Of a stretch of DNA of 12,605 bases, positions 5,351-11,399 are shown in pieces (within the stretch, counting starts at the first letter, position 1; every line of letters begins with the position of its first letter). The position numbers and the translations under genes are program-made. The notes below the pieces were generated by a model. The model made no database searches and was not told the DNA's origin. It saw only the letters and a program-made list of their open reading frames with translations. The DNA is taken from assembly GCA_947303825.1 (NCBI GenBank), contig CAMYZK010000038.1, positions 1 to 12,605 on the forward strand, given 5' to 3'. The DNA is from an uncultured Prevotella sp. (GTDB taxonomy: Bacteria; Bacteroidota; Bacteroidia; Bacteroidales; Bacteroidaceae).

Positions 5351-6550
5351 ATGAAAAGCAAAAGATTGATGACACTGGCAGCGTCGATGCTGCTGATGGG
5401 CGGAGTCGCCATGGCTCAGTCTAACAACTGGAAGTCTTTCTCGTATGTTGAAGCACAAGGTGGTTTGCAGCTCACTTCTACCAACGCACCTATGGATAAG
5501 CTCTTCACGCCAACGGCAGCCTTGAGCTTCGGCCATTACTTCACTCCCGTGGTTGGAGCCCGCCTCCATGTCAACGCATGGCAGTCGAAGAGCGGATTCA
5601 AAGACCTTGACTTGTACTACAAGTGGAAGTATATCACTCCCGACTTAGACCTGATGCTCAACCTGTCGAATATCTTCGGTAAGAATCAGGACCGCCTGCT
5701 CAACGTCATACTGCTGGGCGGCGTTGGCCTTAACTATGCGTGGGACAACGACGAGCTGAAAGGCCTTGGGCTATCGCCGAAGCTCGTACCACTGGCATGG
5801 GACGACAACCGTCTGAGCCACAACCTGAGGGCAGGCCTGCGCCTGGAGACCAACCAGTCGAAGCCTCTCGGACTGTCGCTGGAGGTAAATGCCAACTCTC
5901 TCGACGACCGTTTCAACTCTAAGACCAACGACATGGACGACTGGCAGTTCACTGCCATGATAGGCCTCAGCTACCGTTTCGGCTACAAGGCAGCCAAGTG
6001 CTGCGGCAAGTGTGAGAAGACTGTCACCAAGCCCGTAACGCCTGTTACCCACGAGGTGGAGGAGACCGTATGGGAAGAGGTGCCCGTGAAGAAGATGGTC
6101 AAGGAGAAGCGCCCCGTAGAGAAGGTAGAGCCCGTGAAGCTTCATAAGGAGGTGTTCTATGCTATTTGCATCAGCGACAATGAGAACCCCAGCAAGGTGC
6201 AGCAAGAAGTTGCCAAGTTCATGAAGGAGAACCCACAGGCCAAGGTCTATATCGTAGGCTATGCTGACAAGGGCACCGGCAACGCCAAGGTCAACAAGAT
6301 GTATGCCATGAAGCGTGCCAACACCTTCAAGAAAGACTTGGTGGAGAAGCACGGCTGCAACGCCGACAATATCATCACCGACTCAAAGGGCGACACCGTG
6401 CAGCCCTTCCCCAACGACAACGACAAGAACCGTTGCGTCATCATCGATGCCGAGGGACAGCACAAGGTGACCACCTACGAGGAGTACGAAGTCGAGAAGA
6501 CCGTCATGGAGAAGGTCGAGAAGAAAGTGAAGCGCATCGTCACCGAGTAA
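5351..6550 (+). CDS. OmpA-family outer membrane protein
   Basis: The product has 399 residues. A signal peptide (MKSKRLMTLAASMLLMGGVA, then MA|QSN) is followed by an aromatic-rich beta-barrel region (about 24-212) with alternating strands such as ALSFGHYFTPVVGARLHVNAW. A CCGKC cluster (217-221) and a Pro/Val/Glu/Lys hinge (about 224-263) lead to an OmpA-like peptidoglycan-binding domain (about 265-366). In that domain YIVGYADKGTGNAKVN...MKRAN and NDNDKNRCVII correspond to the diaminopimelate-binding Asp and Arg segments. The C-terminus (373-399) is another EVEKTVMEKVEKKVK-type charged stretch resembling the hinge. The role is probably to anchor the outer membrane to peptidoglycan. A four-codon upstream ORF (5340-5354) overlaps the start codon but is probably incidental. 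Confidence 0.9.
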   Translation: MKSKRLMTLAASMLLMGGVAMAQSNNWKSFSYVEAQGGLQLTSTNAPMDKLFTPTAALSFGHYFTPVVGARLHVNAWQSKSGFKDLDLYYKWKYITPDLDLMLNLSNIFGKNQDRLLNVILLGGVGLNYAWDNDELKGLGLSPKLVPLAWDDNRLSHNLRAGLRLETNQSKPLGLSLEVNANSLDDRFNSKTNDMDDWQFTAMIGLSYRFGYKAAKCCGKCEKTVTKPVTPVTHEVEETVWEEVPVKKMVKEKRPVEKVEPVKLHKEVFYAICISDNENPSKVQQEVAKFMKENPQAKVYIVGYADKGTGNAKVNKMYAMKRANTFKKDLVEKHGCNADNIITDSKGDTVQPFPNDNDKNRCVIIDAEGQHKVTTYEEYEVEKTVMEKVEKKVKRIVTE

Positions 6551-8545: not shown

Positions 8546-9202
8546 CTACAACATCTCCACAAAGGTGCGTGTCAGCATGAAGCTCTGAGCAGCCACCTGC
8601 GCCCAGAAGTCATGGTACTGCTGGGCATGGTTGTCGCTCAAGGGCACATCGCTTATCACCCTGAACGAGATAAACGGCACCTGGCTTAGGTAGCACGTGT
8701 GGGCAATGGCAGCACTCTCCATGTCTACTGCACGGGCATCGGGAAACTTGCTGATGATCTCGGCCATCTTCTCGCGTGTGTCGACAAACCAGTCGCCGGT
8801 GACTATCAGTCCGGGCTTTATCATCCGTGTCATCTCCTGACTGCTCTCCCTCAGCTCAATGGCCTTTGACAGCAAGCTCTCATCGGCAGGGAAGCGCGCT
8901 GGCAGCCCCTGCACCTGTCCGTACTGAGTACTGTTGTCTATTGCCGTTCCGCAGTACACGTCGTGATAGGCCAAGGCGGTGCTCACCACCATGGAGCGCA
9001 CCTCAATGTCGTCGCCGTTGCCACCTGCACACCCGCTGGAGATGATACAGTCGGGCTTGAATTCATTAATCATGCGCTGGGCACCCAGTGCGGCGTTTAC
9101 CTTGCCTATGCCGCATTTCTCTACACGCACCTGGCTACCCTCGAACACCTGGCGGAGCTGCTCCAGCTCCTTGTCCATTGCTACAATTATTCCTATTTTC
9201 AT
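8546..9202 (-). CDS. mtnN: 5'-methylthioadenosine/S-adenosylhomocysteine nucleosidase
   Basis: This 218-residue cytoplasmic enzyme should cleave adenine from methylthioadenosine and S-adenosylhomocysteine, detoxifying and recycling SAM by-products. It begins MKIGIIVAMDKELEQL, with Glu12 at the catalytic position known from E. coli MTAN. SSGCAGG (55-61) and the segment ARAVDMESAAIAHTC (156-170) with Glu162 match the phosphorylase-superfamily purine and ribose site. RVISDVP (181-187) contains Asp185, the residue that protonates adenine N7. Length fits the family. The stop lies 4 bp from the convergent esterase stop. A clear TAnnTTTG promoter is not visible in the 135-bp upstream gap, so expression may depend on read-through from 9338-10570. 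Confidence 0.95.
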   Translation of the reverse strand: MKIGIIVAMDKELEQLRQVFEGSQVRVEKCGIGKVNAALGAQRMINEFKPDCIISSGCAGGNGDDIEVRSMVVSTALAYHDVYCGTAIDNSTQYGQVQGLPARFPADESLLSKAIELRESSQEMTRMIKPGLIVTGDWFVDTREKMAEIISKFPDARAVDMESAAIAHTCYLSQVPFISFRVISDVPLSDNHAQQYHDFWAQVAAQSFMLTRTFVEML

Positions 9203-10674: not shown

Positions 10675-10724
10675 GTGTATACCCGACGACGATACACGAC
10701 ACGACAATGGGATTCACGACAATG
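10675..10724. repeat. CACGAC repeats with a small inverted repeat
   Basis: CACGACAATG occurs at 10700-10709 and 10715-10724 (15-bp period), with a further CACGAC at 10695-10700. Just to the left GTGTAT (10675-10680) and ATACAC (10692-10697) form a 6-bp stem. The cluster lies upstream of the -33 box of the 410-residue protein gene and could be a regulatory site; no regulator is known to me. Confidence 0.45.
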
Positions 10725-10799
10725 ATATTATCACTGAAGATAAAAATTGGAAAGTGTCACTTTTATAGGTAACTAGGTGATATACTTTCTGTTACAGAG

Positions 10800-10824
10800 G
10801 TGACACTTCTTAAAAAAGTGTCAC
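10800..10824. repeat. Left inner hairpin of the foldback element
   Basis: GTGACACTT (10800-10808) and AAGTGTCAC (10816-10824) form a perfect 9-bp stem with a 7-nt loop. The second copy extends to a full AAGTGTCACTT palindrome at 10816-10826. Confidence 0.85.
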
Positions 10825-10837
10825 TTACCATCACCTA

Positions 10838-10858
10838 AGTAAAACAACTTGTTTTACT
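10838..10858. repeat. 21-bp palindrome, copy 1
   Basis: The half-site AGTAAAACAA is followed by a central C (10848) and the exact complement TTGTTTTACT. Perfect symmetry around one base suggests a dimeric DNA-binding protein site. Confidence 0.85.
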
Positions 10859-10900
10859 GTGTACGAAGCCCCTTATTGAACAATAGAAGGCCCCTGGGTC

Positions 10901-10921
10901 AGTAAAACAAGTTGTTTTACT
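10901..10921. repeat. 21-bp palindrome, copy 2
   Basis: The same half-sites as copy 1 flank a central G (10911), making it the exact reverse complement of copy 1. The centres are 63 bp apart, about six helical turns, so bound dimers would face the same side of the DNA. Confidence 0.85.
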
Positions 10922-11040
10922 TTTGGTTTTGCACTTTTACAGCCCTCAGGAAGTCACTGCCTTTATACGGCCGATGGTTTATGCTTTGTTGGCTATGCAG
11001 TGCTGCTATAACATTGTTCCTTCTCTTTCAACACTTTTAA

Positions 11041-11065
11041 GTGACACTTTTTTACAAAGTGTCAC
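11041..11065. repeat. Right inner hairpin of the foldback element
   Basis: GTGACACTTT (11041-11050) and AAAGTGTCAC (11056-11065) form a perfect 10-bp stem around the loop TTTAC. It is the inverted counterpart of the hairpin at 10800-10824. Confidence 0.85.
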
Positions 11066-11176
11066 CGATGTAACTTCTTAATATATAGCAAAATAACTAC
11101 AAAAGTGACACTTTTTGAATTTTTTGAATAAAAAAAATATTTAATGATTGAATGAAAAGAAAAAATGTGTTTTTCC

Positions 11177-11224
11177 TTTGGCTTTTCCTTCGTTTTTTCG
11201 TAACATTGGCTTCGCCGAAGTTAC
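11177..11224 (+). promoter_or_regulatory. Promoter-hairpin module, copy 1
   Basis: A 28-bp block (11177-11204) begins with TTTGGCTTTTCC and ends TTCGTAAC. It holds a -33 TTG (11178-11180) and, 20 bp on, TAACATTG (11201-11208), one mismatch from TAnnTTTG. The -7 box lies inside an imperfect hairpin: GTAACATTGGC (11200-11210), loop TTC, GCCGAAGTTAC (11214-11224). Confidence 0.5.
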
Positions 11225-11249
11225 TAGCACTCAGAAAAGTTCAAATAAA

Positions 11250-11304
11250 TTTGGCTTTTCCTTCGTTTATTCGTAACTTTGCCGTCTGCGACGGCGAAAT
11301 TACT
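11250..11304 (+). promoter_or_regulatory. Promoter-hairpin module, copy 2
   Basis: The 28-bp block recurs at 11250-11277 with one mismatch, 73 bp downstream. TTG (11251-11253) and TAACTTTG (11274-11281) are 20 bp apart, a full promoter match. The -7 box again lies inside a hairpin: the arm 11273-11286 (GTAACTTTGCCGTC) pairs with 11290-11303 (GACGGCGAAATTAC) around TGC, with one mismatch and one G-T pair. Confidence 0.6.
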
Positions 11305-11334
11305 CCGTCTCGGCAAAAAAAGGAACGAGTTCTT

Positions 11335-11364
11335 TTGTTTTGCTCTCGACTTTTAGTAACTTTG
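11335..11364 (+). promoter_or_regulatory. Proximal promoter of the nitroreductase gene
   Basis: TTG at 11335-11337 and TAACTTTG at 11357-11364 are 19 bp apart, and the -7 box ends 35 bp before the ATG at 11400. Transcription should start near 11371, excluding the in-frame TTG at 11340 as a start. Confidence 0.7.
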
Positions 11365-11399
11365 CACACAACATATTATTATTAACAAACATCAGAGTT

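Follow-up and report, generated by a model that had tools for sequence, protein, structure and literature searches.

A short dispersed Prevotella repeat shares its mirrored arms with a VapE-HU gene module

Introduction

The pairing of a replication initiator with iterons is known. According to one report (PMC7581432), the C-terminal domain of SaPI Rep reads iterons located directly downstream of rep, while the SCCmec helicase Cch2, a relative of SaPI Rep, needs an AAGTG iteron. VirE-family (PF05272) ATPase domains fused to primases have been predicted, in general terms in a second report (PMC5862659), to be helicases of mobile elements.

The Prevotella module described below resembles SaPI Rep and PriRep1 (7pds) in its homologous helicase core, its primase-type N-terminus and the short repeats directly downstream of the gene, but differs in having two genes, mirrored site clusters on both sides of the gene and neither integrase nor packaging gene, and in leaving many chromosomal deletion derivatives. 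Like SCCmec Cch2 it exhibits three iterons beside the helicase gene, and the AAGTG of the former (PMC7581432) resembles the AAAGTG part of many Prevotella words. Cch2, however, belongs to another phylum and to a cassette with its own recombinase, and the AAGTG resemblance may be chance.

Results

Layout of the window element

The window analyzed here, a stretch of 12,605 nucleotides from an uncultured Prevotella sp., represents contig C38 of a 2.63 Mb draft genome that is 71% complete (G000). The features of the element are collected in Table 1.

Table 1. Features of the short element in the window
Feature	Position	Strand	Basis
Whole non-autonomous element	10742..11124	-	VapE sense is the minus strand; 76% identity to G000:C45:260-676 over nearly full length, partial matches on C224, C15 and C277; four-copy alignment
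Arm adjoining the palindrome pair	10751..10827	-	corresponds to the arm that separates VapE from HU in full-length copies; zero mismatches to the geometry of word, inverse word (+18) and word (+64)
Outer site AAGTGTCACTT	10752..10762	.	exact AAGTGWCACTT
Middle site AGGTGACACTT, imperfect	10798..10808	.	sequence
Inner site AAGTGTCACTT	10816..10826	.	exact AAGTGWCACTT
Palindrome 1 of the conserved pair	10838..10858	.	kept in other genomes whatever the arm word
Palindrome 2 of the conserved pair	10901..10921	.	kept in other genomes whatever the arm word
Likely remnant of the VapE 3' coding end	10931..10978	-	73% over 48 bp against the C224 copy in blastn (E 8e-4); 45% over 22 aa in tblastn (E 0.03)
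Opposite arm	11038..11113	-	corresponds to the arm that lies upstream of vapE where the copy is full-length
Inner site AAGTGACACTT	11039..11049	.	exact AAGTGWCACTT
Middle site AAGTGTCACCG, imperfect	11057..11067	.	sequence
Outer site AAGTGACACTT	11103..11113	.	exact AAGTGWCACTT

A sequence-only reading of this DNA had described a 364-bp non-coding element with mirrored arms and six AAGTGWCACTT sites. The arms and their 18/46-bp spacing were upheld, and no ORF of at least 60 aa is present between the arms. Of the six sites, four are perfect and two are imperfect. The inverted arms are complementary in one register (89% over 37 bp and 80% over 30 bp) and share an identical spacing of word, inverse word at +18 and word at +64. 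Searched for in positions 10701-11160, this geometry was matched with 0 mismatches on both strands, whereas none of 200 dinucleotide shuffles scored lower than 7. Closer examination of the stretch between the arms revealed two features that the sequence-only reading did not contain, namely two perfect 21-bp palindromes, AGTAAAACAA[C/G]TTGTTTTACT, located 63 bp apart, and the minus-strand similarity to the 3' end of vapE. At gathering scores, an Rfam search of the window assigned no family.

Two other repeats lie nearby. A tandem pair (CACGACAATGGGATT / CACGACAATGATATT) adjoins the element at 10700-10729, and a promoter-side repeat upstream of the nitroreductase gene (11151-11377), with two 42-bp units at 11177 and 11250 that are 86% alike, accounts for a sizeable fraction of the matches listed from other genomes.

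Copies in the source genome

With a 385-bp query, the element was found to recur in G000 on C45 over nearly its whole length and in part on C224, C15 and C277, which amounts to five copies in the draft with the window copy included. All 14 exact AAGTGWCACTT sites of G000 fall inside these five copies, and the reversed control pattern had none. Because the window and C45 copies are similar in the stretch between the arms as well, an already shortened form seems to have multiplied. The suggestion that the element is MITE-like was thus borne out as to copy number and mobility by the five copies in its own draft genome and by the dispersed short, ORF-less copies in relatives, multiple copies of this kind being a mark of MITEs.

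By eye, ten further contigs of G000 (C12, C40, C42, C47, C75, C92, C93, C147, C216 and C321) carry another family of dispersed repeats, which has GTAGCAC/GTGCTAC-like words, a CTGATAATCAG-like centre and a single 21-bp palindrome or near match.

The full-length relative encodes a VapE protein

The C224 copy is full-length, with one recognisable gene between the arms (706 aa, or 728 aa from an upstream TTG) and an HU-HIG gene (PF18291) directly after the right arm. The product of the former combines a BT4734-like N-terminus (PF08800) with a VapE domain (PF05272), while a C-terminal DUF3874 match stayed below the cut-off. Its N-terminus matched the PADLOC PrimPol profile (E 1.6e-22), its core matched phage helicase and primase families, and no HUH endonuclease domain was among its Pfam matches. 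The profile search recovered a single solved chain, 7pds (E 1e-16), which carries the deposition title 'Similar to D. nodosus vapE'. The same entry, PriRep1 with dsDNA, ranked first in the fold comparison with the predicted VapE model (mean pLDDT 76, pTM 0.50), at E 8e-14 and a TM of 0.36 normalised to the query. PriRep1 is a protein of a staphylococcal island (SaPI), and profile and fold both point to a Rep/PriRep-type helicase such as a SaPI-type replicon would have.

Because a stretch similar to the vapE 3' end remains in it, albeit a short one, the window copy looks like a full-length element of the C224 type that has lost its interior. Among the arm-bounded relatives found, none was an autonomous element encoding a transposase; the full-length relative with these arms encodes a PrimPol-VapE primase-helicase, and the others encode VapE too. 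The earlier proposal of a transposase supplied from elsewhere thus gained no support. Plasmid records searched with the full-length C224 copy yielded only short weak matches in four Phocaeicola records, phage records searched by blastn with the window element yielded none, and a scan of IMG/VR for the palindrome pair gave 0 matches.

Contig C74 of G000 (locus L184) carries a distant second VapE (34% identity) followed by an HU-like gene. On either side of this locus, at about 6259-6345 and 8644-8730, lie the inverted copies of a repeat of some 87 bp composed of GTTGACAC/GTGTCAAC words.

Site words at VapE loci across the genus

VapE relatives at E<=1e-30 were present in 100 of 150 genomes of the genus. 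The closest of them exhibit the order vapE, palindrome pair, arm and HU, with a site word that varies by genome. A scan of named genomes provided 80 loci, some identical to contigs of the genomes with G handles, and 63 of these (L217-L279) were examined. At 39 of the 63 the palindrome pair follows the VapE match by 9-28 bp; among the 24 loci lacking it, 4 end at vapE, 15 encode VapEs of <=57% identity and the others, at 60-70% identity, are either decayed or of another form. A right arm scoring <=6 was found in the 8-26 bp searched past the pair at 35 of the 39 pair-bearing loci, compared with 0 of 780 shuffles, and a repeat cluster directly downstream of the gene, as in a SaPI-type replicon, was therefore present at these 35 loci. 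Left arms, which were sought in the 700 bp upstream blind to the right arm, scored <=6 at 29 of 38 loci, compared with 3 of 220 shuffles derived from 22 of these loci.

The words of the 25 loci with two arms include GTGATGCT, GTGGAACT, ATGACACT, GTGATAGA, GTGTAAGA, GTGACACT, GTGAAGGC and GTGACATT. Of five variable positions, 0.83 mismatched between the left and right words of one locus and 2.99 between those of different loci (18 distinct pairs), an agreement that was equalled in 0 of 200,000 permutations; the exceptions L232 and L239 differ between left and right at 4 of 5 positions. Co-variation of the arms in homologues was the test by which the sequence-only reading would have its symmetric sites judged, and they withstood it, since left and right words co-vary. 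The palindrome pair, on the other hand, is nearly constant whatever the arm word. Word distance correlated weakly with VapE segments (best rho 0.25, for residues 600-660) and with HU (0.23). As the word tracks no single VapE segment strongly, HU is a possible reader of the word.

For the VapE relatives at L260-L262, L266 and L267, the match begins no earlier than about residue 205, so that they perhaps lack the PrimPol part, and several lie beside repeated words of other sequence, e.g. GTGGAGGT at L261 and L262. Loci L190-L193 of genome G024 form a group of four islands related to one another, with about 91-97% similarity in most of the stretches they have in common, whose genes, named from reading of the sequence, include DUF4373-like, DnaB-like, VapE and HU; their VapE-HU inserts differ.

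A unit of VapE and HU in unrelated surroundings

Loci L218 (Prevotella sp. RGIG6979) and L219 (Prevotellaceae RUG13967) are 98.4% identical over 2,848 bp, while both flanks are unrelated. The stretch in common reaches from a few bases outside the left arm to 20 bp past the HU stop, and VapE and HU are its only recognisable genes; a transposase was absent among these, as were the integrase and phage-packaging genes of a SaPI-type replicon. As the two copies are near-identical in unrelated flanks, the unit of VapE and HU is, by sequence comparison, one that moves. Among 18 full-length loci compared for their ends, homology stops -1 to +20 bp from the HU stop in 15 of the 16 pairs with at least 82% identity and continues for 1,094 bp in the remaining one, L226/L251. 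Outside the elements, the flanks of 31 loci gave seven separate matches, one of which (L225/L239) lies upstream at about the same distance; L228 and L230 occupy a single site (97% over 8.5 kb), and one flank is common to L226 and L251. Of the two arms of the autonomous unit, only one is therefore terminal. The other is internal, because the unit ends only after HU, and this arrangement argues against plain transposon ends.

The L219 copy lies beside parA. In 12 of 12 other genomes with the parA-side flank, that of L218 included, no VapE was found in the fetched 1.5 kb, a comparison of presence and absence rather than a base-exact one, in which the locus of L219 itself did yield VapE. Lack of the palindromes at these 12 loci is uninformative, since the positive L219 locus was cut before the pair. 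The other flank of L219 is not conserved, and the reciprocal test with the L218 flanks, outside its own genome, met only a repeat within the left flank. A base-exact empty site for the L218/L219 unit was thus found neither in the 12 genomes with the parA-side flank nor with the L218 flanks. For the window copy, 15 relatives with a nitroreductase homologue offered no orthologous empty site, as neither upstream neighbour gene of the window was in the fetched loci; the 410-aa gene was met in one other genome only. In a comparison of own against foreign downstream flanks at 30 VapE loci from the genus, the former ranked highest at 3 only. No target-site duplication was found at any of the 12 G006 copies that have both ends, where the longest word shared next to the ends was 3 bp, and none was obvious by eye at L218/L219.

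Short copies in other genomes

The palindrome-pair pattern gave 69 matches in 13 of 13 genomes, which had been chosen for earlier hits, and 35 matches in four of four named carriers, with 0 matches of the reversed control in either set. In a word-blind scan of right arms adjoining the pair, a single word family stood beside 5/5 pairs in G000 (GTGACACT), 7/7 in G006 (GTGACATT), 12/16 in G034 (GTGACAG), 10/12 in G107 (GTG[AT][CT]ATT), 3/3 in G128, 3/6 in G155 (GTGATAGA) and 0/8 in G098, the remaining pairs having no clear arm or another arm. The word of the short copies was that of the VapE copy, itself one of the counted pairs, in G000, G006, G107, G128 and G155, with only two of five short copies carrying it in G155. 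G032 contains two words, one being that of its VapE, and most short copies of G098 have, by eye, a word other than that of its VapE. Short copies were also present in G033 and G034 (83% and 93% complete), where a close VapE was not found.

Within a genome, the copies have the pair and the right arm in common up to about 0-30 bp beyond the outer site, with some pairs of copies alike over a longer distance. Their left limit is widely variable. Many lack the left arm, the window copy having both, and some retain, by eye, the vapE 3' end or the start of HU. Several vapE-less copies occur per genome, with 6 in the compared G006 set and 15 pair sites in G034.

Pairs were also observed in other settings. 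In khp7 (G174), the VapE copy was the one among 20 pair loci that scored for arms, and several of the others share a different flanking repeat; by eye, the pairs at L312, L317, L321, L322, L326, L327, L329 and L330 of this genome lie inside another repeat family with GTTTGTCGTAA-like words and no GTG words. In three genomes, the pair lies inside the coding sequence near the end of a gene that we take, from reading of the sequence, to be birA-like (biotin ligase), at L316 (1491-1573), L145 (1996-2078) and L177. The palindromes there replace ordinary codons, and the relatives L217 and L213 are nearly the same length without them.

Discussion

The window element probably derives by internal deletion from a small mobile module of Prevotella-type genomes and is itself non-autonomous, with arms that would act as VapE iterons and copies that would be replicated in trans and reinserted. 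The order of this module is left arm, vapE (PrimPol and SF3/AAA+ helicase), palindrome pair, right arm and HU-HIG gene. Each arm would be a cluster of three iterons bound by VapE, with the C-terminal domain as the probable reader, as in SaPI Rep with its origin, and VapE may load itself on these clusters as SaPI initiators do. Helicases loaded on mirrored clusters to either side of the gene would face each other and could melt and copy the segment between them, while HU may bend the arms or bridge them together. The palindrome pair, being insensitive to the word, may be used by another, conserved factor. A resident VapE could then replicate in trans those deleted copies in which arms and palindromes are retained, and these would reinsert by a step that leaves no duplication.

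The arms are accordingly best read, in our analysis, as origin-like sites and not as transposase ends. A classical MITE, the ends of which are bound by a DDE transposase encoded elsewhere, would share with the window element its short, non-coding and dispersed nature, the inverted ends, the many copies and the derivation from a longer element by internal deletion. We nevertheless regard this reading as highly improbable, given that the longer partner with the same ends encodes the replication initiator VapE and no transposase, that one arm is internal to the mobile unit, that no target duplication was found at the 12 G006 copies with both ends and that the site words vary between genomes. One-ended transposition of the IS91/Helitron kind likewise leaves one constant and one variable side among copies, but the Pfam matches of VapE include no HUH endonuclease domain. 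REPIN/RAYT systems have in common with the element the many copies of paired palindromes at a fixed distance, whereas the Prevotella arms are much longer and their words variable. If the palindrome pair of roughly 83 bp were the true mobile unit, moved by an unlinked enzyme with the arms as passengers, one would understand why the pair is kept across words, in birA and without these arms (19 of the 20 khp7 loci did not score for them), and why copies differ at their left ends but retain pair and right arm. Such hitch-hiking has a slim chance of being correct, however, as GTG-word arms, where present, keep a fixed distance from the pair, the birA pair replaces codons in place with no insertion, and the 2,848-bp unit is shared as a whole.

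The arms could also be operators at which VapE or HU represses or coordinates the vapE-HU unit, with the short copies being passive debris spread by recombination or other elements. Their position upstream of vapE and just upstream of HU and the protein-site geometry would suit this reading, and co-variation would suit any DNA-binding protein of the module. It appears unlikely to us, since vapE-less short copies retain arm geometry and pair and occur several per genome, which is not expected of debris. From the earlier alternative of a two-sided operator or architectural array between divergent genes we retain protein binding of the arms, whereas the dispersed copies are not explained by an operator.

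Beyond the reading of the arms as VapE iterons, the module may represent a class of mobile element that has no recombinase, in which an initiator and HU spread via replication at their own mirrored, rapidly diverging iterons, reinsertion is left to the host or to replication restart, and vapE-less derivatives are served in trans. We propose this class tentatively and with rather less than even confidence. In the literature considered at the level of titles and abstract beginnings, with most subscription journals and preprints outside, no VapE/BT4734/HU cluster, Prevotella repeat or primase-helicase element of this kind was described; at the same level, two-gene modules, mirrored clusters, a word of the lineage's own and many deletion derivatives were not found described for initiators with iterons.

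Movement without a recombinase, if true, would be new in kind and a route of gene movement outside those known to us. Each lineage would then have a private code of initiator and word, and VapE with its words would constitute a natural library of orthogonal replication starters. To our knowledge, VapE relatives are mostly unexplained, and in this genus one clade of them is accompanied by a DNA code that can be read and that varies from lineage to lineage. A family of short repeats in Prevotella genomes gains an origin as well. Should VapE be the reader of the arms, its numerous natural pairings with a word would make the recognition of an origin by its initiator directly testable.
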